A stretch of 20,366 nt of DNA from positions 1-20,366 of the IMG/VR virus record IMGVR_UViG_3300044577_000045. One strand, 5' to 3'. How positions within the stretch are numbered: position 1 is the first letter of the stretch; each line of letters starts with the position of its first letter. The translations under genes and the position numbers were made by a program. Positions 1,270 to 19,078 of the stretch are shown in pieces. This stretch comes from a virus. Below the pieces are notes generated by a model that was not told the origin of the DNA, made no database searches, and was given only the letters and a program-made list of their open reading frames with translations.

Positions 1270-1457
1270 AATTTACGATTCAGAGAGACAAGGCCGCGAA
1301 GTGGCGTTGGAAATTGGTTGCGAACAACAACGAGATTGTTGCTTGTTCGAGCCAAGGATTCGCAAGGAAATTAGATTGCCAGATCAATTGCGAACTGACC
1401 TTCGATGGCCTCAGAGAAAACAAGGGCGCGTGGCACACTTACCGCGACTCGGATTGA
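1266..1457 (+). CDS. DUF1508 (YegP-like) domain protein
   Basis: A 63-residue protein starts at the ATG overlapping the upstream stop, with GGGAG just upstream as ribosome binding site. The sequence MKFTIQRDKAAKWRW followed by KLVANNNEIVACSS shows the pattern of the DUF1508/YegP domain: a beta strand, a K-W-R-W strand, then A-N-x-E-I-V-A-x-S-x-G. It contains one such unit, whereas bacterial YegP has two. The domain is a small alpha-beta fold with no firmly established biochemical role. In this phage it is an accessory gene lying between an unknown gene and the methyltransferase. The family assignment is fairly secure; the role is unknown. Confidence 0.7.
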   Translation: MKFTIQRDKAAKWRWKLVANNNEIVACSSQGFARKLDCQINCELTFDGLRENKGAWHTYRDSD

Positions 1458-1462
1458 CTGCA

Positions 1463-2206
1463 ATGGAGGTGCAGTTCGAAAAGTGCTTGTTCGATCCGGA
1501 ATTGATCCGATATCTATATCTGAATACCGGGATCGCCTTCAAACTTCTGTTTGGCTACCGGCCTCGCAGGGTGTCGGAGCTATTGCTTAGTGCCGAGTGG
1601 GATCGTGAAGCGCCGAAGACAGAGGGCGAGTACAACAACTTCTATCGAGAGTCGTTGCTGGTTACAGAGGAAGTCGCAGTGTGGCATCAGGAACGCAACG
1701 GTCAGCGATTGCGTCGAGTGATACATGCGGGGACGATTGCAAAACAACTTGGCCTGAATCGCTTCTGTGAGGTCGGCGCGGGGATCGGTACGGATGGCGT
1801 TGCGCTGGCTAGACTCGGGTTCGATTGTGCTTATCTGGCGGAAATCAATAAAAATTCATTGCAGATGATCGAGAAAATGCGCGACCTTGCGATGGTCGAG
1901 CTAATGATTGTCGATCTATCGAAGACGACGAAAGAATTGTCTCACCGGCATTTCGGGCCTGTCGATTGGCTGTACAGTTCAGATTTATTCGAACACATTC
2001 ACGATCTGGAACAGTGGCTCGATGGATGGATTCATAATTTTCGAGTCGTAATTGTTTATGCGCCGTTCGGGAAATCTGACAAGAACCACGCGCACACGGC
2101 ATATACAAAGCGCGAGTTCAACGCATTCATGTCGCGACAGGGATTCGAAAAGGTCAAAGTGCGCGGTCTAGGCATCCCGCCGATGGTTTACCTGCGTAGA
2201 GCATGA
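1463..2206 (+). CDS. Class I SAM-dependent methyltransferase
   Basis: A 247-residue protein is read from the ATG at 1463, five bases after the DUF1508 stop. The open frame continues upstream to 1301 but only as a shadow of the DUF1508 gene. A Rossmann SAM-binding motif I is seen at residues about 101-112 (CEVGAGIGTDGVALAR), an acidic end of strand 2 in YLAEIN, and a post-motif II/III strand in VDWLYSSDLFEHI near residues 168-180. This matches the methyltransferase type 11/12 superfamily. The target cannot be read. It lacks the PCQ motif of C5-cytosine methylases and has no clear DPPY of N6-adenine methylases, so it may methylate a small molecule, a sugar on modified DNA, or a protein. Its neighbours include ParB-N and TAGT genes. 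Confidence 0.75.
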   Translation: MEVQFEKCLFDPELIRYLYLNTGIAFKLLFGYRPRRVSELLLSAEWDREAPKTEGEYNNFYRESLLVTEEVAVWHQERNGQRLRRVIHAGTIAKQLGLNRFCEVGAGIGTDGVALARLGFDCAYLAEINKNSLQMIEKMRDLAMVELMIVDLSKTTKELSHRHFGPVDWLYSSDLFEHIHDLEQWLDGWIHNFRVVIVYAPFGKSDKNHAHTAYTKREFNAFMSRQGFEKVKVRGLGIPPMVYLRRA

Positions 2207-2221: not shown

Positions 2222-2551
2222 ATGACTGAAAAATATATGGCATATGATGATGACCAAGCCCTTGCTGGCCCCGACACGCCACCAATGAAAACGATCATGG
2301 ATGTGATTCGGTATTGCATTACCGTGCACGAGCGGTTTGGAAATACGTGCGTGGCGGATGTTCGATTGAAGTGGGGAGCCTGTGCGTTGAACAGCATGGA
2401 TGCTTCGAAGAAAGATACTGCACGAATGGATCATCTGGAAAACGAACCGATGGATCAGACCGGAACACTTTTTCGAAAAAACATGAAGATTACTCGGCAA
2501 ACGATTGATGCAGCAATTGCCGCCGACCGGGACGATCAGGAACACACATGA
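2222..2551 (+). CDS. Hypothetical protein
   Basis: A 109-residue soluble protein starts at the ATG at 2222, preceded by a strong Shine-Dalgarno (AAAGGAGAG, about 9 bases upstream). The stop overlaps the next start in an ATGA junction. It is rich in Asp and Met and predicted to be mainly helical, with a central segment (MDVIRYCITVHERFGN) that could pack as a helix. No motif is recognised. The good ribosome site, and the coupling to the ParB-N gene, suggest it is made together with that protein and may be a partner, but this is inference. Confidence 0.6.
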   Translation: MTEKYMAYDDDQALAGPDTPPMKTIMDVIRYCITVHERFGNTCVADVRLKWGACALNSMDASKKDTARMDHLENEPMDQTGTLFRKNMKITRQTIDAAIAADRDDQEHT

Positions 2552-3180
2552 AAATTAGAATGCTGTCGCCCAAGTCGCTGACGCCGTACAACAAAAACCC
2601 ACGCGATAACTCGAAGGCAATCGAGGCTGTTGCGCAGAGCATCAAGGACTTCGGATTTAACCAACCCATCGTCGAGGACAAAGGCGTGATCGTTGTCGGT
2701 CATACTCGGCATTCGGCCGCGTTGCTTCTCGGATTGACTAAAGTCCCTGTCACCGATTGCAAGCATCTGACGAAGGCGCAGATTCGCGCATACCGGATCG
2801 CGGATAATCGGACCAACGAGAACAGCTTCTGGCTCGAAGTCGAACTTGCTGAAGAGTTGCTTGCGTTGAAACCGGAGCAAAGGAAATCGACTGCATTCAG
2901 TGACGACGAGCTGGACGAAATACTTGGCGCTGTCGAAGATGCCGTGCCGATTGTTGGCAAGGTTGAGTTCAGTCAGGAACTTTTAGAGTCGCGGAATTAC
3001 GTTGTGCTATATTTCGACAACGATGTTGATTGGCTTAACGCCAGGACGCATTTCAAATTGAAGTCTGTTTACAGTAAACGGTGTAACGGAAAGCCGTGGA
3101 GCAAGGGCATCGGTCGTGTTGTCGATGGTGCTAAATACCTGCGGAGGGTCACGAAAAATGTCAGTAAAAAAAAGCGATAG
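2548..3180 (+). CDS. ParB-N (ParB/Srx fold) domain protein with C-terminal extension
   Basis: A 210-residue protein. Residues 1 to about 100 are a ParB/sulfiredoxin-like N-terminal domain: the opening LSPKSLTPYNKNPRDNS is the usual strand plus N-P-R, followed by GFNQPIVEDKGVIVVGHTRH with the phosphate-binding G-H-T-R box at residues 51-54, and then IRAYRIADNRTNE. This family includes CTPases and nucleases, and stand-alone members are common in phages next to DNA methylases and base-modification genes. The helix-turn-helix of plasmid ParB is missing. Instead, residues about 140-200 form a compact extension (NYVVLYFDNDVDWL, later KPWSKGIGRVVDG). It overlaps the following gene by 23 bases. A role in DNA modification with the TAGT gene two positions downstream is inferred; plasmid partition is unlikely. 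Confidence 0.8.
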   Translation: MKIRMLSPKSLTPYNKNPRDNSKAIEAVAQSIKDFGFNQPIVEDKGVIVVGHTRHSAALLLGLTKVPVTDCKHLTKAQIRAYRIADNRTNENSFWLEVELAEELLALKPEQRKSTAFSDDELDEILGAVEDAVPIVGKVEFSQELLESRNYVVLYFDNDVDWLNARTHFKLKSVYSKRCNGKPWSKGIGRVVDGAKYLRRVTKNVSKKKR

Positions 3181-3469
3181 CGAGTACACGGATGCGAGAG
3201 GAAATCTGCACAAGCAGTTCGCAGATGGTCGGGCTGAAATCTACATTGGCGGCTATGACAAGGATACTGAGTATGTCGATGTCACGGATGAAGCAGATAA
3301 GGCTGTTAATCGCAAAAGGTTTTTGCGATATATCGAGCCTCCCGTTTCTGAAACGGTACTGCACCATGATCCGGAAATTGCGACCAGATATTTAGACTCA
3401 ACGCGGGAAATCGAAGATGATGGCGTGCCTGGAATAGATTCGCTCGACTCGGACGAAGATGAAAATTGA
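3158..3469 (+). CDS. Acidic hypothetical protein
   Basis: A 103-residue protein is read from the ATG at 3158, which has a good Shine-Dalgarno (GGAGGG about 11 bases upstream) inside the end of the ParB-N gene. An in-frame start at 3116 lacks such a site. The N-terminal part (DARGNLHKQFADGRAEIYIGG) looks like a beta hairpin. The C-terminal 40 residues are strongly acidic and end DSLDSDEDEN, as in DNA-mimic or chaperone-like tails. No family is recognised. It overlaps the glycosyltransferase start by 11 bases, so it is translationally coupled between the ParB-N and glycosyltransferase genes. Confidence 0.6.
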   Translation: MSVKKSDSEYTDARGNLHKQFADGRAEIYIGGYDKDTEYVDVTDEADKAVNRKRFLRYIEPPVSETVLHHDPEIATRYLDSTREIEDDGVPGIDSLDSDEDEN

Positions 3470-4205
3470 AATATTGTCACCGTCTTACCATCGCGCCGAT
3501 TCAGCTACCACTCAGGACTACTTACCTGTTTGCACCTATGTTGTTGCACGGTCTGAGAAAAAGGCTTACGAGTCAGCAGGAAGGCGAGTTATTGCCGTCC
3601 CGAATGACGTGCAGGGCAACGTCTGTCGCGTACGCAATTACATACTCGAACACTTCAACCCCGTTCTAATTCTCGACGACGATATTCGTCGCTTCGGTCG
3701 ATGGAATAAGCAAGAGAATTTGAAACTCGATACCGACGAGGCGATGGAGTTCATCGAACACGCATTCATTCTTGCGAAAGGATTTCGTGCGCGTATGTGG
3801 GGCATGAATCTGCTCCCGGACAAGGCAGCCTATCGAGAGTACACGCCCTTTGCTTTTCGTGCTGTCGTGCTTGGTCCCGTGCAGAGATTCACCAACATGG
3901 ATTTACGATATGACGAATCGCTGCCATTGAAAGAAGACTACGATTTGAGTTTGCAAGTGTTGAACAAATATCGGCGCACATTGCGATTCAATATGTATCA
4001 CTACGTTTGTGATCAGCACACGAATGTCGGGGGTTGCGCCACCTACCGAACGATGGATCGAGAACGCAAGCAGTTTTTGCTCCTGCAAAAAAAGTGGGGC
4101 AGCGATATCGTTCGGATCGACACCCAGGGCGGCCAAGTGAATCAGAAAAAGCTCACCAATTGGGACATCAACCCGGTCGTGCGCGTTCCGATTACTGGTG
4201 TCTGA
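3459..4205 (+). CDS. TAGT-like (TET-associated) glycosyltransferase
   Basis: A 248-residue GT-A-fold enzyme. The N-terminus (ILSPSYHRADSATT) is the nucleotide-sugar binding start typical of TET-associated glycosyltransferases. It is followed by the CRVRNYI segment and the metal-binding LILDDDI motif with Asp residues 73-75. A second acidic motif, PLKEDYDLSLQVL with E159-D160, is the expected catalytic-base region, and C-terminal HTNVGGC and KKWGSDIV segments also match my memory of that family. TAGT enzymes are known from phages and some eukaryotes, where they are predicted to glycosylate oxidised pyrimidines such as 5-hydroxymethylcytosine. The gene has a weak ribosome site and is coupled to the upstream gene. 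Its stop directly abuts the small terminase start. The acceptor could alternatively be protein. Confidence 0.75.
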   Translation: MKIEILSPSYHRADSATTQDYLPVCTYVVARSEKKAYESAGRRVIAVPNDVQGNVCRVRNYILEHFNPVLILDDDIRRFGRWNKQENLKLDTDEAMEFIEHAFILAKGFRARMWGMNLLPDKAAYREYTPFAFRAVVLGPVQRFTNMDLRYDESLPLKEDYDLSLQVLNKYRRTLRFNMYHYVCDQHTNVGGCATYRTMDRERKQFLLLQKKWGSDIVRIDTQGGQVNQKKLTNWDINPVVRVPITGV

Positions 4206-4796
4206 ATGGCCGGGCCCGATAGAAACGTCACCGGGAAAGTACTCGCTCATATTTTCGGAGTCACGGAGCGTTACATTCAGATTCTTGCGGCTGATGGAAT
4301 CATTTTCAAAGAGGGGCGCGGACGATATCGATTCATCGATTCGTTGATGGGCTATATCGTTTTTCTAAAAGCGGATCGCGATGGAACTCAAGTCGCAGGA
4401 GAAACCGCTTATGGCGACGCCAGGACACAGAAAATGCGCGCCGACGCCGACAAATCAATCATGGAAGCTGCGACACTTGCCGGTTCTCTAATCCCGGTCG
4501 ATATCGTTGCATATAGTTGGAATCACATGACAGGGGCGTTTCGCGCTAAACTTCTGAACCTGCCTAAAAAAACTGCGGCATTAGTCCAGCATGAGAACAG
4601 CTTCCGCAAGTGCCAGTCTGCTTTACAGTCCGCCATACATGAATGTTTGGCAGAATTATCACAGTACGAACCTCCCGCAAAGCATTTCGGAAACCTTGAG
4701 CAGTTCCTATCTGGCACCACCTCCCGACTTGACGATAAGCCAGTGGGCCGAAAAAAATCGAAAACTGTCAAGCGAAAGCAGCGCAGAGCCGGGTAA
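4206..4796 (+). CDS. Terminase small subunit, lambda Nu1-like
   Basis: A 196-residue protein (lambda gpNu1 has 181) starting immediately after the glycosyltransferase stop. The N-terminus holds a winged helix-turn-helix (VTGKVLAHIFGVTERYIQILAADGIIF followed by a KEGRGRYRF wing), which in lambda recognises the cos region. Residues 70-150 are helical, as in the dimerisation region (ADADKSIMEAATLAG). The C-terminal tail is very basic (GRKKSKTVKRKQRR) and is encoded within the overlap with the large subunit. In the family this subunit recruits the large subunit to viral DNA. The position directly before a GpA-like gene supports the call. The ATG has no clear Shine-Dalgarno and probably relies on coupling. 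Confidence 0.85.
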   Translation: MAGPDRNVTGKVLAHIFGVTERYIQILAADGIIFKEGRGRYRFIDSLMGYIVFLKADRDGTQVAGETAYGDARTQKMRADADKSIMEAATLAGSLIPVDIVAYSWNHMTGAFRAKLLNLPKKTAALVQHENSFRKCQSALQSAIHECLAELSQYEPPAKHFGNLEQFLSGTTSRLDDKPVGRKKSKTVKRKQRRAG

Positions 4797-6555
4797 TTGG
4801 TCGAACGATAGAGCGCCTTATCAACCGGGCATGATGGATGCTTGCGGCGAAGAGGAGACGACTGACGTTACTTTTATGACTTCATCGCAGGTCGGCAAGA
4901 CTGAAATCATAAATAACGTGCTCGGCTACCACATAGACCAAGACCCATGTCCGCTGATGATCGTGTTTCCGACAAAGGAAATCGGACAAGCGTATTCGAA
5001 GGACCGACTTGACCCGATGATCCGCGATAGCGGCCTTGACACGAAGGTTGCGCAATCTGGATCGAAAAAAAAAGAGAACACCGTTCTGCATAAGTCATTT
5101 CCGGGAGGGCACGTTACGATCAGTGGCGCGAACAGTCCCGCCTCGCTGAGTTCGCGGCCGATCCGAGTCGTGCTATGCGACGAGGTTGATCGATTCCCGT
5201 ACAGCGCTGGCGAAGAGGGCGATCCGGAGCAGTTGGCATTCAAACGAACGCAGACGTTTTACAACAAGAAGCGCATCGACACTTCGACTCCGACGATTAA
5301 AGGATTGAGCCGAATCGAGGCACGCTTCAAGGCTGGTGATATGCAAAAATACTTCGTGCCGTGCCACAAGTGCGGTCATTGTCAGGAACTTGTTTGGAAG
5401 CAAGTCAAATTCAAAAAGGACGATAAGCGGATCGATCCGTATTACGACTGCATCAGTTGCAAGGCACACTGGAACGAAGCGCAGAAACGAAAGAATGTTG
5501 CGCGAGCCGAAGATGTAGAGGGCGGTGGCTGGATCGCGACGAACGACAAAGGCGCTGCCGGACATCGCTCATTCACTATTTGGGAAATCTATTCGCCGTG
5601 GTCGACGATGGACGAAATTGTCGAAGCATTTTACGCGGCAAAGGAAAACCCACTCAAGCTGCAAACATTCGTGAATACCGTCCTTGCTGAGAGTTGGGAG
5701 GAAAGCGGAGAAACCTTGTCGAGCAATAAATTGTTTCATCGCCGCGAGCGATATCCGGTCGACGGTGATGGCGAGCGTGTTGTGCCGAAGGACGTTCTGT
5801 TGCTGATCGCGGGAGTCGATATACAAAAGAATTGGATCGAGGGCGAGGTCGCTGGCTTCGGGCGCGGCGAAGAGTGGTGGGGAGTCGACCATTGGAAAAT
5901 ACCGGGGGATACGGAATCTGGTGAGGTGTGGCAGGAACTTGCGGAGCGACTGGAAGTGACCTATGGGCACCAGTCCGGCCACATTCTGAAAATCGCTGCG
6001 ACCGGGATCGATTCAGGACACCGGACCAACACCGTGTATCGATTCTGCGCAGAGAGGTCACAGCGTCGAGTCTGGGCCATGAAGGGCAGAGGCGGTGAGG
6101 GAGTGCCAATCGCGTCGCCACCGACCAAGAAAAAGACAACAATACCGGGAATGCCGGTTGACCTATACACGGTCGGAACGGATCAAGCGAAATCGAGCAT
6201 TTACGCGAGGTTGAAGCTACGAAGGCCGGGGCCTGGTTACTGCCATTTTCACACGGACTATACCGAGGCGTTTTTCGAAGGTCTGACCGCGGAAAAAGCA
6301 CTGACCGTTTACACGAAAGGGTTCCCGAAATTGGTATGGCGAAAACCTCCGGGCGTTGCGAATGAACCGCTAGATATTCGGGTCTATCAATTTGCTTGCC
6401 TCGCAATTCTTAATCCTGTTTGGAGTGCGTTGCAAAAAAGGCTAGAATCCGAGCCACCGGAGGAAGCGAAAGCGGACGACGATGAAAAACCCGAAAAAAA
6501 GCGGCGCAAAAAAAGACGTAAGCGTCGCTCTGGCTTTGTTGGAGGCTTGAGCTAA
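4639..6555 (+). CDS. Terminase large subunit, GpA family
   Basis: A 638-residue protein from the ATG at 4639; lambda gpA has 641, which supports this start over the in-frame ATG at 4591. It is the ATP-driven packaging motor and nuclease that cuts and threads DNA into the prohead. The Walker A motif is SSQVGKT (residues 82-88), and the Walker B motif is VVLCDEVDRF with D181-E182. A zinc-ribbon insert follows with C242-HK-C245 and C271-IS-C274. The nuclease domain starts near LIAGVDIQKN, with TGIDSGH and a C-terminal PLDIRVYQFACLAIL helix as in gpA. The C-terminus carries a Lys/Arg-rich tail (KKRRKKRRKRR). The frame overlaps the small subunit gene by 158 bases. The stop overlaps the next ATG. 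Confidence 0.93.
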   Translation: MNVWQNYHSTNLPQSISETLSSSYLAPPPDLTISQWAEKNRKLSSESSAEPGNWSNDRAPYQPGMMDACGEEETTDVTFMTSSQVGKTEIINNVLGYHIDQDPCPLMIVFPTKEIGQAYSKDRLDPMIRDSGLDTKVAQSGSKKKENTVLHKSFPGGHVTISGANSPASLSSRPIRVVLCDEVDRFPYSAGEEGDPEQLAFKRTQTFYNKKRIDTSTPTIKGLSRIEARFKAGDMQKYFVPCHKCGHCQELVWKQVKFKKDDKRIDPYYDCISCKAHWNEAQKRKNVARAEDVEGGGWIATNDKGAAGHRSFTIWEIYSPWSTMDEIVEAFYAAKENPLKLQTFVNTVLAESWEESGETLSSNKLFHRRERYPVDGDGERVVPKDVLLLIAGVDIQKNWIEGEVAGFGRGEEWWGVDHWKIPGDTESGEVWQELAERLEVTYGHQSGHILKIAATGIDSGHRTNTVYRFCAERSQRRVWAMKGRGGEGVPIASPPTKKKTTIPGMPVDLYTVGTDQAKSSIYARLKLRRPGPGYCHFHTDYTEAFFEGLTAEKALTVYTKGFPKLVWRKPPGVANEPLDIRVYQFACLAILNPVWSALQKRLESEPPEEAKADDDEKPEKKRRKKRRKRRSGFVGGLS

Positions 6556-8688: not shown

Positions 8689-10731
8689 ATGCCTAGCAAG
8701 GTGAAACCGAAAACTGATCGAAAAATTCGCACAACGACGCTTCGGCGAGTTGCATTCTTTGATCGACAAAGCGTCGATATGGATGCGAGGACAGTGAACC
8801 TTGCGTTTTCGAGTGAAGTACCTGTAGCGCGATGGTTTGGTGAAGAAATTTTAGATCATGGCAAAGGGTCAGTCCGGATGAAGCGGTTACGCGAAACCGG
8901 ACCGCTGCTTTTGAACCATGATGGCCGAGAACATATCGGAACAGTTGAATCTGCGAAGATCGATAGTGACCGCGTTGGACGCGCGGTAGTGCGGTTTGGC
9001 CAGGGGGCCGACCGTGACGCGATTTTGCAGGATATCGAGGATGGCATTCGGAAGTCTGTTAGCGTGGGCTATCAAATTCACCGAATGAAACTCGAAGAAA
9101 GCAGCGACGACGAACCAGACGTTTATCGGGCAACCGATTGGGAACCGTTCGAAATCTCGCTAGTGTCGATGCCCGCTGATATCGGCGTCGGAGTGGGTCG
9201 GGAGGCCCGCGAATGGCATAATGGCGATGAAGGACATCACAATACAATCACTATTGATTTACCTGTAAAGGAAACTAAGACTATGAAATTCGATGCGAAC
9301 GGCAACCCAATTGCCGAGACAGACGAAGATCGCGATGCAATTACAGCGGGAACTGCGAAGCGAAAGGACGGTACGCTGTTTGTTGCCGCCGCGGCTCCTG
9401 TGCCAGTTATTGCTGCTGTCGCTGATCCAGTCAACGTCGACGAGGTTCGCGCTGCGGAACAACTCCGGATCAAATTGATGACGGAAGTCGGCGCGAAGTA
9501 CGGCCAAGTCGATTTGGCAACGAAGTGTATTGCCGAAAACAAATCGCTTGCCGAGTTCAACGCGATGCTGCTCGATGCTCTACCGGGCGCGAAGCGTTAC
9601 ACAGCGGAAACACGCTCCGACTCGGACGTGAATATCGGACTCGATGGTAAAGAGATAAAGCGATTCCAGTTCCTGCGATTGATTCGTGCGCGCACGTATG
9701 GCCACGACCAACCGTCGTTCGTCGAGGAAGCCGCTTTCGAGCTGGAAGTTTGCCGAGTCGCTGGTGAGGAAGCTAAGAAAGGCAATCGGAAGCAGCGCGG
9801 GCTAATAATCCCGAACGATATTCTGCTCTATCAAAACCACGATGCGTCGCGGGATTGGCGAACAGTTCGTGCGATCCAGGAACTGATGCAGACTCGTGTA
9901 TTGACACAGGCCGTTGCGGGAGCGTCAACGATTGCGGAGGATCTGCTTGCCGGATCGTTCATCGATCTATTGCGTAACCGAATGATCGTGGCTGCGCTTG
10001 GTGCGACGATGCTGAACGGGCTTGATGGCGACGTTGCCATTCCGAGGTTGACAGGAGGTGGCACCGCGTTTTGGCTGGCAACGGACGAAACCGACATCAC
10101 CGAGGCAACGCAGACCTTAGATCAGGTCACGCTTGTGCCGCGAAATGTTGGCGCTTTGTCTGTGTTCACCAGGCAATTGCTGTTGCAGTCGAGTGTCGCA
10201 ATCGAGGCGTTGGTTCGAAGCGATATTGCTACCGTGCTTGCGATTGCAGTTGATCTGGCCGCGCTGTACGGTACGGGCGCTGGCGGTCAGCCAACGGGAG
10301 TCTCTAATACGGCAGGAATCGGTGCGCCGGGAGCATTCGCCGCTGCGGTTCCGACCTTTGCCGAGGTTATCTCGCTTGAGACCGTGGTTGCCCAGGCCAA
10401 TGCGCTTACTGCATCGCTTGCGTATGCGGTCGATACTGGAATGCGCGGCAGCTTGAAATCTGCGGAAAAGGTAGCTACGACCGGGCAGTTCATTTGGGAA
10501 GTGGGGAACACTCTCAACGGCCACCGAACCGAAGTCTCGAATCAGATTACCGATGGCGATGTGTTTTTCGGTAACTGGTCCGACTTGCTTCAAGGATCAT
10601 GGGGCGGTCTTGATGTCTTGATTGATCCTTACACGCTGTCTGCCCGAGGCAATACGCGAGTAATCGCTTTCTGGACGACTGACTTTGCTGTGAGGCATCC
10701 GGAGTCGTTTTCATTCGAGAATGATACGTAA
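8689..10731 (+). CDS. Fused HK97-type prohead protease and major capsid protein
   Basis: A single 680-residue chain. Residues about 15-170 are an HK97-type prohead protease (S78): H77 in LLLNHDGRE, S125 in KSVSVGYQI and E155 in FEISLVSMPA give the His-Ser-Glu triad. Residues about 190-300 form a helical, Ala-rich linker that probably takes the place of a scaffold (delta) domain. From about residue 310 on, an HK97-fold capsid follows, seen in FQFLRLIRARTY, KQRGLIIPNDI, GGTAFWLATDETDI, LVPRNVGALSVFTRQLLLQS and the C-terminal YTLSARGNTRVIAFWTTDF. The chain should assemble, cleave itself and mature. An internal ATG at 9283 with AAAGGA before it could give a free capsid protein. No separate protease, scaffold or decoration gene lies nearby. 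Confidence 0.92.
   Translation: MPSKVKPKTDRKIRTTTLRRVAFFDRQSVDMDARTVNLAFSSEVPVARWFGEEILDHGKGSVRMKRLRETGPLLLNHDGREHIGTVESAKIDSDRVGRAVVRFGQGADRDAILQDIEDGIRKSVSVGYQIHRMKLEESSDDEPDVYRATDWEPFEISLVSMPADIGVGVGREAREWHNGDEGHHNTITIDLPVKETKTMKFDANGNPIAETDEDRDAITAGTAKRKDGTLFVAAAAPVPVIAAVADPVNVDEVRAAEQLRIKLMTEVGAKYGQVDLATKCIAENKSLAEFNAMLLDALPGAKRYTAETRSDSDVNIGLDGKEIKRFQFLRLIRARTYGHDQPSFVEEAAFELEVCRVAGEEAKKGNRKQRGLIIPNDILLYQNHDASRDWRTVRAIQELMQTRVLTQAVAGASTIAEDLLAGSFIDLLRNRMIVAALGATMLNGLDGDVAIPRLTGGGTAFWLATDETDITEATQTLDQVTLVPRNVGALSVFTRQLLLQSSVAIEALVRSDIATVLAIAVDLAALYGTGAGGQPTGVSNTAGIGAPGAFAAAVPTFAEVISLETVVAQANALTASLAYAVDTGMRGSLKSAEKVATTGQFIWEVGNTLNGHRTEVSNQITDGDVFFGNWSDLLQGSWGGLDVLIDPYTLSARGNTRVIAFWTTDFAVRHPESFSFENDT
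9267..9285 (+). promoter_or_regulatory. Possible internal ribosome binding site and start for a free capsid protein
   Basis: Within the protease-capsid fusion gene, AAAGGA is followed about ten bases later by an in-frame ATG (residue 199, MKFDANGNPIAE). It lies exactly at the junction between the protease domain and the linker. The arrangement looks like the start of a once separate capsid gene. Initiation here would yield a 482-residue capsid protein without the protease. This is inference; the site could equally be an inert relic. Confidence 0.4.
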
Positions 10732-14614: not shown

Positions 14615-15012
14615 GTATTTTCACTTACACCGCGAGGCGAGAATTGTCGCCCGGCACATCGAACCTTGAACTCGTCACTCGTGATTTTCGGTTGTTGTCC
14701 AGGCGACTTACGCGACGTGCGAAGGTACGACAAAACACGTCGCTGAGTGGGTCGGTCGAATCATTATTACTGCGAAGCGAGAAGCATTATTCTTGCCAAT
14801 CGCAAGCGATTGATCCGCGCAGCTTGGACGAGGCGAGACTGCTTGAGTTTCTTGCGTCAGTCGAGAATGCTGAATTATTCACCTTCGACCGATATGGTTC
14901 GATCGCTGTTCCGGACAATCCGGTGTCGTGTTTGATGGTTTCTGCAACCTTTCCGGAGGCGGAGCAGGCAAAGAAGTTTCACCGCTACGCATTTGTGATC
15001 CGTGAGAGCTGA
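14611..15012 (+). CDS. Minor tail protein, probable distal tail component
   Basis: A 133-residue protein starting at a TTG that overlaps the tape measure stop (TTGA). It lies between the tape measure and the tip protein, the position of gpM-like distal tail proteins. It begins SIFTYTARRELSPGTSNLEL and is rich in Arg and Ser, with a beta-rich end (LFTFDRYGSIAVPDNPVSCL, then AKKFHRYAFVIRES). The layout fits small beta-barrel tail proteins that form the ring joining tube to hub, but no family motif is certain. An in-frame alternative start was not evident. It overlaps the tip protein gene by 11 bases. Confidence 0.6.
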   Translation: MSIFTYTARRELSPGTSNLELVTRDFRLLSRRLTRRAKVRQNTSLSGSVESLLLRSEKHYSCQSQAIDPRSLDEARLLEFLASVENAELFTFDRYGSIAVPDNPVSCLMVSATFPEAEQAKKFHRYAFVIRES

Positions 15013-18000
15013 CAACCCCCTATTCGGGACCGACAACATAGACGGCTCGAAACAGCCGCGTTATGTGGTGAGCATCGATTTCGATGGCACGTTGCAGCAC
15101 ATAACCTCGCACGACGACATTGCAAATGTACCTACTGCGTTAGCAGTCATACAGAATGCAATTCTCGGAATCAGTGCGACGAGCCAAACGCTGAACCCGG
15201 ATCGCGCAAATGCAACGATTGGCAGTATGTCGTTCGATATCGTTGACCTTGCGAATGCCTTCACGAATGTCGTTCGAAACCAATTGACCACGAACGATAT
15301 CGGCTTGCGCGGTCGGACTGTGAAATTCTATGTTGGTTACAAAACCGAGTTAGATGGTGCTGGCATTCTTGATGGGGGCAGCACCGACGACAATCCGGAT
15401 TTCGATAATTTCGTTCTGTTTCAAACACAGATTGTGCAAAGCGTTGAAACGAAGGAAGGCATATATTCAATCAAGTGTGCTGATATTCAGAGGGACACGA
15501 AAAAGAAAATTTTCGAACTTGCGCTAACCTATTTCACTAGCTCAATCACCGATGTTGCTACGACTATTCCTGTGCTCGACCTGTCAGGTTTCGAGGGCAA
15601 TGTGCACGGCACGAGCTACACGGATGCACCGAGTCTGGATGTAATTTATATCCGGATCGATTCGACAAAGGAAATCATTCGATGCCCGACATCGGGAATT
15701 TCAGGAAATAGCTTTACAGGCGTTACTCGCGGAGCTTTGGGAACGACTGCAAAGGCCGTGGAGGTTGATACCGCGTCTGCTAGTGACCGCCGACCGAAGG
15801 TTGAGGAATATGTCTACCTCGAATTACCTGCTGTCAAACTCGCCTATGCGGTCCTGACCGGAGTAATCGAGGGCACCGCTAACGTGTTGCCGAGCAGTTG
15901 GCACGCGGGAGTCCCAGCATCGTTCGTCCGGTTGACTGACTTCAAAACGATTGGTGATGATCTGTGGGTGCCGACCGACGATACTGCTGCCGTTGTTCTG
16001 CGATTCGATGGTATAGAGAAGCAGGATGCCAAAACTTTTTTAGAGACCGAGATTTACCTGTTGCTCGGTTTGTTCTCCCCGGTGTATGCGGATGGTCAGC
16101 TTGGGCTAAAACGCATGGTGCCATCGCTATCGGATTCGCCTTATAAGTTCGACGTTGACGATGACAACGTGATCGGATCGGCAAACTTGCGGCACGACAT
16201 GGAGTCGATGCAAAACAATCTGCGAGTCGATTGGGCATGGAACGGGGATCGTTATATTCGCTCAACCATCATTGTCGACTCGACATCGATTGCGAAACAC
16301 GGTCAGGCCCTCGAAAAACGAATGTCTTTCCGTGGTCTGGTCGGAACGCGATTTACGGAACAGGTGTTGCGGCAGTTGCTTACATCGCTGCGCGATATGT
16401 ATACCGGCCCTCCGCTACGCCTGGACATCGATGGATTTCATTTGATGAACCCGCTTGAAGTGGGTGATGCCGTTCGAACAAACCTGTCGAATATCAGGGA
16501 CTACAGCCAAGCCGGTACGAATCTAGTCCGCACAATGGTCGTTCACGGAATGACCGTCGATTGGCTAAAGGGCGTCAAACTGAAATTATTTGGCAGCGCC
16601 GAAAGGGCCGAAGAAATCCCACCAATAACGGCTACTACCTGTTTGCCTGATGCGTTCTATGCGCAAGCTGGTACTGCGCTCTCAAGCATTGGGGGATTGA
16701 TGACAGGCAATGTCACCAATGCGGGATCATTCACGCTTATCGGCAATGTCGATATGAACGCTGCGGGAGCAATTTTCTATCACGATGGTCCGCTGACAAT
16801 CAGCTCAACCACCACATTGAACATCGAGGATAATGTACAGCTTCGTGCCAAAGGATTTTTGACAATCAATGGTTCAATCATCGGCACAGGAGAGGGCCTT
16901 GCTGCCGGTTCCGATAATTTTGTTTTCGACGAGCACTATTTCTTCACTACCGGCATAAACGTCGGCAACGAGGGATTCATTGGTAACAGCGTCTCGCATT
17001 TCGGCTTATTGTTTCGTGAACCTGACGATGGCGGCATACCCAAATGGGTTTGGGTGACAGCGCCGTATTCGCAGCTTGGACGATACGATTCATTCCCGAA
17101 TCTAGTGCTGCAAGTAGATGATGCTGGTAGCGGGGAAATCATTGGCATACCCACTGATATGCGCGGCGGGGGTGGTCCTGCAGGTACGCGAGCCGGCCTA
17201 AAAATTGGAATCTCAGGGCGCAGCCATCAAAAAAACATCGGCGGAGCAGGCGGTGCTGGCGGTGCTGCTCTCGTCGTCGTTTGTCGAGGTGGGGATTTCG
17301 GAGTGTCGGGACTGATTCGGCTCGATGGCGCGGATGCTTTAGAGCCAACTGGTTTTTTTACAACCCAACCGAACCCAACCTTTCACATTTATGGCGGTGC
17401 TGGTGGTGCTGGCGCTCCGGGTGCGTTGCTGTGGTTGATCGATGGATCGGGGCAGACGTTTCCGGATATCGCGGGACACTTTTTTGCGATCACTGGCGAC
17501 GTTCCTGCTCAGTTCGCGTTGCCGCTTCAGGGAGAGGGGCAGTCAGCAAGTAGTCAGAACCGAAGCCTATCGCAAACTAACGCACCACAGAAAAATATGG
17601 CCCCATTTATGCCGGGACGGATCAGTGGATTCGATCAGTCGGGCGTCAATTTTAGAATTTCATTTTTACCTTGCGACGTTGTTCCGGAGGACGACCAAAC
17701 TGACATTGTGCCTCCCCCGTCTGGTCTTGCTGCCGTTCAAGCAACCGGAGGCATACAATTATCCTGGACGAACCCACCAGCCGATGAATTTGATTACATC
17801 GAAATAATCGAGGACATAAATGATTCATTTGCAGGATCATCAAAGATAGCTGAGGTACGAACCGACAGGTATTTAGTGCCGCACGATCCGGACAGCACAG
17901 AATATTTCTATTGGATTCGCGCTGTGCGGCCCCCGGATACACAATCGATTCGCGATCCCGATTCAGATACAACGACAATTTCTGCAACGACTGAGGCCCC

Positions 18001-19078
18001 TATACTCGACGGATTAAATGCAGTGTCGGGATTCGTAGAGCCAGAGAATGGTCTTGCGTGGGTGAGGGCGACAACCGGAGGTGCGTGGACGCCGGTTCAA
18101 TTAACCACCGATCTGGATTGCCGGTTTGTTCAAGGCGGCGTCGATGTTGCGCGCATCGCGAGGCGCGTCACTCTGAATAGTACGAACGGGACGCTGACGG
18201 TAACCACTGTAGCTCACAAGTCGGGCAACCTGAATACTTCGAGAGTGACTGTCACCATTTTGGGGTCGGGATCAACCGCCCTGTCTGCGAAATTCGATTA
18301 TTCATTTAGCGGTGATGATGGGTCGGATTCTGTAACAGTTGCATCTGCGCAGGGTGGCGACGATGGCGTCCTGCATTATTTGACCAATGAGGCGCACGTA
18401 GTCGCGGCCAATTTTGATGGCGGAGGGTATTCGTTAACGGGCTCGGGTGGAACTCACAAGGTTTTTGAGGGAACTAGTGATGAGACGACAAACGCAACGC
18501 ATTCCGTCGTTGCCCCTGCCACAAAAAACGGCCTCACAATTGCGGTTGTTTCTGGCACTGGTGTCTATTCTCTCAGCGGAGCGTCTTGGACTACCGACAT
18601 TGAAACATTCACATTGCGGGCGGTGTTTAACGGCGTCAACTACGACAAGGAATACACGATTGCTAAGGCCAAGCAGGGAACTGATGGCGGGTGCGCATTA
18701 AATACATTCACAGACATAACGCTGTCTGACGAGCAAGATTTTCCAACTAATGCGGGGGTCGGGTTCGAAGTTAATTCATCCGGCACCATTCGAATTGAGA
18801 CCGGCTTCAACACCGGATTTTCTTTTAAGGAAACTTGGATTGGTGCGTGTGCTAATACAGAATATGAAACTAGGCTTGAAAAGACCAGTGGTGATGATCC
18901 GTCAAACGGCCCAGCACTTGCTACATGGCTCGTTTGTAGCACTACTCGTCAATGGGATTGGCAGGAACAGGGTACGGGTGGGAAGGATTTCATTGGCGTG
19001 TTGAGAATACGTCGCACGAGCGATGATACTGTGTTGAAAACAGTAGCTATCGACATTCATGTAGATGTTATTCTTTGA
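15002..19078 (+). CDS. Tail tip/central hub protein, likely host recognition
   Basis: A 1358-residue protein from the GTG at 15002, analogous in position and size to lambda gpJ (1132). Residues about 1-560 form the hub-like part (YVVSIDFDGTLQHIT, IYSIKCADIQRDTKKK). Residues about 563-640 look like a repetitive beta-structured stalk (LIGNVDMNAAGAIFYHDG, LTISSTTTLNIEDNVQLRAK). Two glycine-rich segments lie near residues 719-760 and 795-810 (GGAGGAGGAA, GGAGGAGAPG). Residues about 904-1000 are a fibronectin type III domain (PSGLAAVQATGGIQLSWTNP, with YFYWIRAVRP). Residues about 1000-1230 hold Ig-like repeats (GVYSLSGASWTTDIETFTLR, ending YTIAKAKQG), and the last 120 residues are beta-rich. The C-terminal parts probably contact the receptor. 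Confidence 0.82.
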   Translation: MRADNPLFGTDNIDGSKQPRYVVSIDFDGTLQHITSHDDIANVPTALAVIQNAILGISATSQTLNPDRANATIGSMSFDIVDLANAFTNVVRNQLTTNDIGLRGRTVKFYVGYKTELDGAGILDGGSTDDNPDFDNFVLFQTQIVQSVETKEGIYSIKCADIQRDTKKKIFELALTYFTSSITDVATTIPVLDLSGFEGNVHGTSYTDAPSLDVIYIRIDSTKEIIRCPTSGISGNSFTGVTRGALGTTAKAVEVDTASASDRRPKVEEYVYLELPAVKLAYAVLTGVIEGTANVLPSSWHAGVPASFVRLTDFKTIGDDLWVPTDDTAAVVLRFDGIEKQDAKTFLETEIYLLLGLFSPVYADGQLGLKRMVPSLSDSPYKFDVDDDNVIGSANLRHDMESMQNNLRVDWAWNGDRYIRSTIIVDSTSIAKHGQALEKRMSFRGLVGTRFTEQVLRQLLTSLRDMYTGPPLRLDIDGFHLMNPLEVGDAVRTNLSNIRDYSQAGTNLVRTMVVHGMTVDWLKGVKLKLFGSAERAEEIPPITATTCLPDAFYAQAGTALSSIGGLMTGNVTNAGSFTLIGNVDMNAAGAIFYHDGPLTISSTTTLNIEDNVQLRAKGFLTINGSIIGTGEGLAAGSDNFVFDEHYFFTTGINVGNEGFIGNSVSHFGLLFREPDDGGIPKWVWVTAPYSQLGRYDSFPNLVLQVDDAGSGEIIGIPTDMRGGGGPAGTRAGLKIGISGRSHQKNIGGAGGAGGAALVVVCRGGDFGVSGLIRLDGADALEPTGFFTTQPNPTFHIYGGAGGAGAPGALLWLIDGSGQTFPDIAGHFFAITGDVPAQFALPLQGEGQSASSQNRSLSQTNAPQKNMAPFMPGRISGFDQSGVNFRISFLPCDVVPEDDQTDIVPPPSGLAAVQATGGIQLSWTNPPADEFDYIEIIEDINDSFAGSSKIAEVRTDRYLVPHDPDSTEYFYWIRAVRPPDTQSIRDPDSDTTTISATTEAPILDGLNAVSGFVEPENGLAWVRATTGGAWTPVQLTTDLDCRFVQGGVDVARIARRVTLNSTNGTLTVTTVAHKSGNLNTSRVTVTILGSGSTALSAKFDYSFSGDDGSDSVTVASAQGGDDGVLHYLTNEAHVVAANFDGGGYSLTGSGGTHKVFEGTSDETTNATHSVVAPATKNGLTIAVVSGTGVYSLSGASWTTDIETFTLRAVFNGVNYDKEYTIAKAKQGTDGGCALNTFTDITLSDEQDFPTNAGVGFEVNSSGTIRIETGFNTGFSFKETWIGACANTEYETRLEKTSGDDPSNGPALATWLVCSTTRQWDWQEQGTGGKDFIGVLRIRRTSDDTVLKTVAIDIHVDVIL

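Follow-up and report, generated by a model that had tools for sequence, protein, structure and literature searches.

A conserved phage cassette of a ParB-like protein and a TAGT glycosyltransferase with a possible role in DNA glycosylation

Results

Organization of the locus

The window analyzed here is the whole 20,366-base stretch of an IMG/VR virus record, which may be a fragment. A search of phage records for near DNA matches to the window returned none. Genes for a methyltransferase, an orphan protein, a ParB-like protein, an acidic protein and a TAGT glycosyltransferase are closely spaced on the plus strand and run into the genes of the small and large terminase subunits. From the orphan to the TAGT gene, just upstream of the terminase genes, the reading frames overlap head to tail. 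The following features were assigned:

1301..2206, plus strand: class I SAM methyltransferase, core ~1481-2203 (PF13489, E 7e-4, below cut-off)
2222..2551, plus strand: orphan protein, 109 aa, overlapping the ParB start by 4 nt
2548..3180, plus strand: ParB-like protein, 210 aa (PF02195, 26.9 bits, cut-off 26.3; phrog_620, phrog_498)
~2956-3150, plus strand: C-terminal module of ParB (NYVVLYFDNDVDWLNARTHF...NGKPWSKGIGRVVDG), residues ~137-201, with no Pfam match of its own
3158..3469, plus strand: acidic protein, 103 aa, pI 4.4, ATG at 3158
3459..4205, plus strand: TAGT glycosyltransferase, 248 aa, predicted GT-A fold (PF20691, 47.7 bits, cut-off 27.5; phrog_842)
3675..3683, plus strand: DDD motif of TAGT (D73-D75), corresponding to the GT-A DXD metal/donor site, invariant in 53 relatives
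3930..3944, plus strand: KEDYD motif of TAGT (residues 158-162), K158-D162 invariant in 53 relatives
4164..4202, plus strand: C-terminal tail of TAGT, D[IFY]NPIIKxPIxGV (DINPIIKVPIxGV), present in the clade with the ParB C-terminal module
4206..4796, plus strand: small terminase subunit, given for context (phrog_57, E 4e-23)
4591..6555, plus strand: large terminase subunit of the lambda gpA type, given for context (PF05876 and PF20454)

As listed, the large terminase frame overlaps that of the small subunit, and its true start probably lies further in. Profile matches, motifs and gene overlaps bear out the cassette of ParB N domain, acidic protein and TAGT that had been described from the sequence-only reading. 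Comparison with close relatives indicated purifying selection on the ParB, acidic, TAGT and methyltransferase genes (dN/dS ~0.06-0.18). The methyltransferase is 75-87% conserved in the loci L002-L004 with a dN/dS of 0.13-0.15 and is possibly an accessory gene. Further downstream, a single ORF of 680 aa (8689-10731) combines a prohead protease (PF04586) with an HK97-type major capsid protein (PF05065), and a tail-region protein of 1358 aa (15002-19078) had no Pfam match.

The acidic reading frame shares 23 nt with ParB and 11 nt with TAGT. Its product matched no Pfam or PHROG family, and homologues were found only in the loci L002, L003, L004 and L006 and in their duplicates, where the gene has a dN/dS of 0.09-0.18. 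As it is confined to the phage clade of the window, we rejected it as a core component of the cassette; it is a clade-specific insert.

The glycosyltransferase

The match of the 3459-4205 product to the Pfam TAGT family spans the whole profile and exceeds the curated cut-off, as the earlier assignment had implied. Both motifs named with that assignment, LILDDDI and KEDYD, are present in the protein. The KEDYD motif presumably occupies the position of the GT-A catalytic-base motif. A structure model with a pLDDT of 88.6 retrieved neighbours of the GT-A fold, consistent with the DXD motif. The C-terminal tail is missing from the TAGTs of T2, Klebsiella, L009, L145, L121 and Gina. In a TAGT tree, sequences of the hydroxymethylcytosine type and the first copies of tandem TAGTs were placed on long branches; this grouping was marked as a possible artefact and was not used.

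ParB and TAGT occur together across phages

TAGT relatives were collected from the best 80 of 361 viral relatives and from 11 bacterial loci, whose contig labels included Verrucomicrobia, Bacteroidetes, Spirochaetes, Acidobacteria, Lentisphaerae, Planctomycetes and Firmicutes. Of the 95 related loci, which derive from phages and prophages of several bacterial phyla and include near-duplicates, 89 have ParB beside TAGT. ParB mostly lies directly upstream, often with an overlap of 1-11 nt, and the pair is commonly followed by terminase genes, which belong to at least two unrelated types. Five of the six loci lacking ParB start within ~350 nt of a contig end; the sixth, L009, carries a TAGT of another type adjoining a pyrimidine hydroxymethylase. 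The adjacency is thus near-obligate and far beyond chance.

When 11 diverse genomes were compared, ParB and TAGT were the sole protein families common to all of them. The next most shared families, which resemble large terminase and portal protein, occurred in 4 of the 11, and a third core gene was rejected, none being found in these genomes. Nor did they have a capsid or tail family in common. By these comparisons, ParB and TAGT are the constant unit of the cassette.

Other genes are occasionally inserted between the two, namely a methyltransferase in L054/L058/L059, an FkbM methyltransferase in L073 and a second TAGT in L083, L086, L088 and L091, where tandem copies follow one ParB; the divergent first copies perhaps add a second sugar. 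A radical SAM/SPASM protein occupies this position in L007 (6233-7108). Gina encodes a UDP-glucose dehydrogenase downstream of TAGT, and in L048-L052 a cytidylyltransferase-like protein is encoded upstream of ParB. Together with the FkbM methyltransferase, these neighbours would fit an enzyme that uses nucleotide sugars.

The C-terminal module of ParB co-varies with TAGT

The N-terminal part of the ParB-like protein (~2548-2937) is a ParB/Srx-fold domain. The ParB_N profile retrieves Spo0J/Noc/ParB structures, and in the structure model this domain matches the CTP-binding CTPase domains of Noc and ParB. A search of 50,697 phage records with the full-length protein matched 340 records, and the sole match to the C-terminal module alone was Javan291 (E 0.01). 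Viral contigs were scanned with a pattern for the module; this gave 80 loci, and in every one of them TAGT adjoined it. Scanning independently with the ParB N domain added 79 loci, none of which carries the module. Mean identity was 54% for the module, 50% for TAGT and 31% for the ParB N domain, and the partial correlation with TAGT was 0.55 for the module versus 0.15 for the N domain. The module is thus dedicated to TAGT and co-varies with it. The module and the TAGT tail, which fall in less confident regions of the two single-chain models, may bind each other.

Related ParB proteins adjoin DNA-modifying enzymes

In 44 of the 79 further loci an amino-methylase motif lies in the same ORF as the ParB N domain. 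Elsewhere this domain adjoins Mom (PF25680), a C5-methylase (PF00145, 218 bits), TET/JBP (PF12851) and other TAGTs, as well as a PAPS-reductase-like and a TGT-like protein. TET/JBP-family dioxygenases directly follow ParB in L143 (1976-2908), L147 and L155 (2757-3671), and in the record of L147 a TAGT lies downstream of TET, giving the classical ParB-TET-TAGT arrangement. On the bacterial contig L099 (2327-5177), ParB, TAGT, a small ORF, a second ParB and Mom follow in succession. The position is shared as well: ParB-methylase fusions lie upstream of terminase genes in Javan394 and Latilactobacillus TMW 1.2272 P1, as do ParB-Mom in Psychrobacter Y8A and ParB-TAGT in Javan291. The locus of the window, where ParB adjoins a candidate modifier upstream of terminase, belongs with these cassettes, and the pattern points to phage ParB proteins as interchangeable partners for enzymes that modify DNA. 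The ParB neighbours also include an ABC ATPase, a PAPS reductase and a GT-B, for which a role in DNA modification is not established; this counts against DNA glycosylation as the function of the cassette.

Two further arrangements were observed. A conserved ABC-type ATPase (phrog_11143) follows ParB in L149 (3513-4187), L158 and L171 and possibly represents another ParB-linked system. In L177 (3487-4251), a queuine tRNA-ribosyltransferase-like protein (phrog_887) comes after ParB, recalling the DpdA/DpdB pair.

These ParB partnerships bear on the alternative that survives best, in which the sugar goes to a protein of the phage or the host, such as the capsid, the terminase or ParB itself, with ParB as acceptor or carrier. 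Phage glycosyltransferases are thought to modify some capsids. The solved folds nearest to the TAGT model are polypeptide GalNAc-transferases (GalNAc-T2, Z 13.8) and the teichoic-acid transferases TarP/TarS, which use protein or glycan acceptors and so count against a DNA target. A protein acceptor would also agree with the lack of a base-hydroxylating gene common to the 11 genomes, and the highly conserved C-terminal module of ParB could serve as the acceptor site. However, Z values above 12 are found across GT-A enzymes and do not reveal the acceptor, so that the GalNAc-T2 match was not accepted as an argument for a protein target. Moreover, DNA methylases, Mom, C5-methylase and TET/JBP are all found as partners of this ParB N domain, and the cassette-bearing genomes compared share no capsid or tail family that could be the substrate. 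We consider a protein target rather doubtful.

Genes for base hydroxylation or methylation

In agreement with the sequence-only reading, profile search of the window revealed no TET or C5-methylase gene. The same search was extended to 27 cassette-bearing phage records, which include 36 and 39 kb relatives of the window and the complete Javan291 and Gina. TET/JBP was found in none of the 27 (the profile matched L143, L147 and L155 as positive controls), and a C5-methylase in one, as a partial match at a contig end. Hydroxymethylases of the thymidylate-synthase type, including dCMP hydroxymethylase, were likewise found in none of the 27, and the profile matched the control record W03. For Javan291, 42 proteins, most of them non-structural, were compared with Pfam, which returned ParB, TAGT and ordinary phage families. 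The 25 families listed, from which matches weaker than E ~3e-5 could be missing, comprised no oxygenase or methylase and no alpha-GT or beta-GT family; oxygenase families beyond TET/JBP were looked for in Javan291 alone. As most virus records may be incomplete, a single absence says little; what counts is the pattern as a whole together with the complete isolates.

An unrecognised phage or host enzyme might still make a hydroxylated or hydroxymethylated base, which TAGT would glycosylate in the classical way. The chemistry of T2/T6 TAGT, which requires a hydroxymethyl base (PMC13216743), and the ParB-TET-TAGT arrangement of the L147 record speak for such a route. The profile results for the 27 records, the Javan291 scan and the lack of a third gene family common to the 11 genomes stand against it, and we regard it as unlikely.

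The main proposal of the earlier reading, an orthodox TET/JBP operon with its TET and C5-methylase genes located beyond the 20 kb fragment, fares considerably worse. The record may indeed be incomplete, and the TAGT name derives from TET operons; the predictions of TAGT and TET operons reportedly go back to Iyer et al. 2013. However, the missing genes probably do not simply lie outside the window, since the 36 and 39 kb relatives and the complete Javan291 and Gina lack them too, and 11 further phage records are without TET/JBP. Such an orthodox operon is therefore very improbable, and the evidence favours the variant system that the same reading had offered as its alternative. It is just as improbable that ParB, in line with the usual annotation of phage ParBs and with the nucleases and partition proteins among ParB/Srx proteins, serves partition or nicking beside a merely adjacent TAGT with a separate role, given the pairing in 89 of 95 loci across phyla and a C-terminal module that adjoins TAGT in all of its 80 loci and varies in step with it.

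Discussion

A putative DNA glycosylation module

We cautiously favour the interpretation that the cassette is a late two-protein phage DNA glycosylation module, in which ParB brings TAGT to DNA. DNA modification has the strongest support of the readings considered, since ParB elsewhere pairs mostly with DNA-base modifiers; to this extent the DNA hypermodification proposed earlier holds up, and its TET/JBP part does not. In the proposed mechanism, the module would be expressed late, the ParB N domain would engage phage DNA and the C-terminal module would hold TAGT. TAGT might then move a sugar from a nucleotide-sugar onto a base before the DNA is packaged by the adjacent terminase, and the sugar would presumably shield phage DNA from host nucleases. 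As none of the recognised phage genes would supply a hydroxylated base, the acceptor may be either a canonical base, glycosylated directly, or a hydroxyl made by an unrecognised route. That T2/T6 TAGT works on a hydroxymethyl base which already carries glucose (PMC13216743, PMC13390438) counts against the proposed module.

A bolder version, which we put forward tentatively, is that ParB and TAGT are self-sufficient and directly glycosylate a canonical DNA base, for example at an exocyclic amino group, in phages of many bacterial phyla. We know of no precedent for a GT-A enzyme that directly glycosylates a canonical base, and of no glycosyltransferase for which such DNA chemistry has been reported. 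A glycosylation route without TET would add a base modification and might be put to use for glycosylating DNA in a single step.

Both TAGT and the placement of ParB beside genes for DNA modification are already known. In a literature search for ParB with TAGT or hypermodification, whose scope excluded the 2013 operon predictions, we did not find the TET-free variant with a dedicated ParB described. According to a 2026 paper, TAGT is the only DNA glucosyltransferase in 288 of 753 phages, and its role in these was left open (PMC13216743). The ParB-TAGT cassette probably accounts for some of these 288 phages. Our results thus describe one large class of solitary TAGTs, which has a dedicated ParB module and lacks base-hydroxylating genes where tested, and cultured members, the Microbacterium Quhwahvirus phages, can be named for measuring the product.

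Comparison with known systems

The beta-glucosyl-HMC-alpha-glucosyltransferase of T-even phages (T2/T6 TAGT), which adds a second sugar to already glucosylated hydroxymethylcytosine (PMC13216743, PMC13390438), belongs to the same PF20691 and PHROG family and has the GT-A fold (PMC13216743). Unlike the cassette TAGT, it adjoins dCMP hydroxymethylase, and the T2 enzyme has neither an adjoining ParB nor the DINPIIKVPIxGV tail. Phage TET/JBP-TAGT operons share the TAGT family and may include ParB, as in the L147 record, but they contain TET/JBP, whereas the 27 cassette-bearing records lack it and gave one partial C5-methylase match.

Phage ParB-N6/N4 methylase fusions and ParB-Mom pairs have the same ParB N domain at the same site upstream of terminase genes. 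In the cassette, however, the partner is a glycosyltransferase, and the C-terminal module of its ParB is absent from those ParBs. In 7-deazaguanine insertion, the DNA transglycosylase DpdA also works with a ParB-like partner, DpdB (PMC12839542), although its chemistry is a TGT-type base exchange and not the sugar transfer of a GT-A enzyme. Similarly, ParBc genes with no assigned role accompany the C5-carboxymethyltransferase CmoX, so that a ParB-type gene again lies beside a phage DNA modifier, here with a different enzyme chemistry (PMC12783734).
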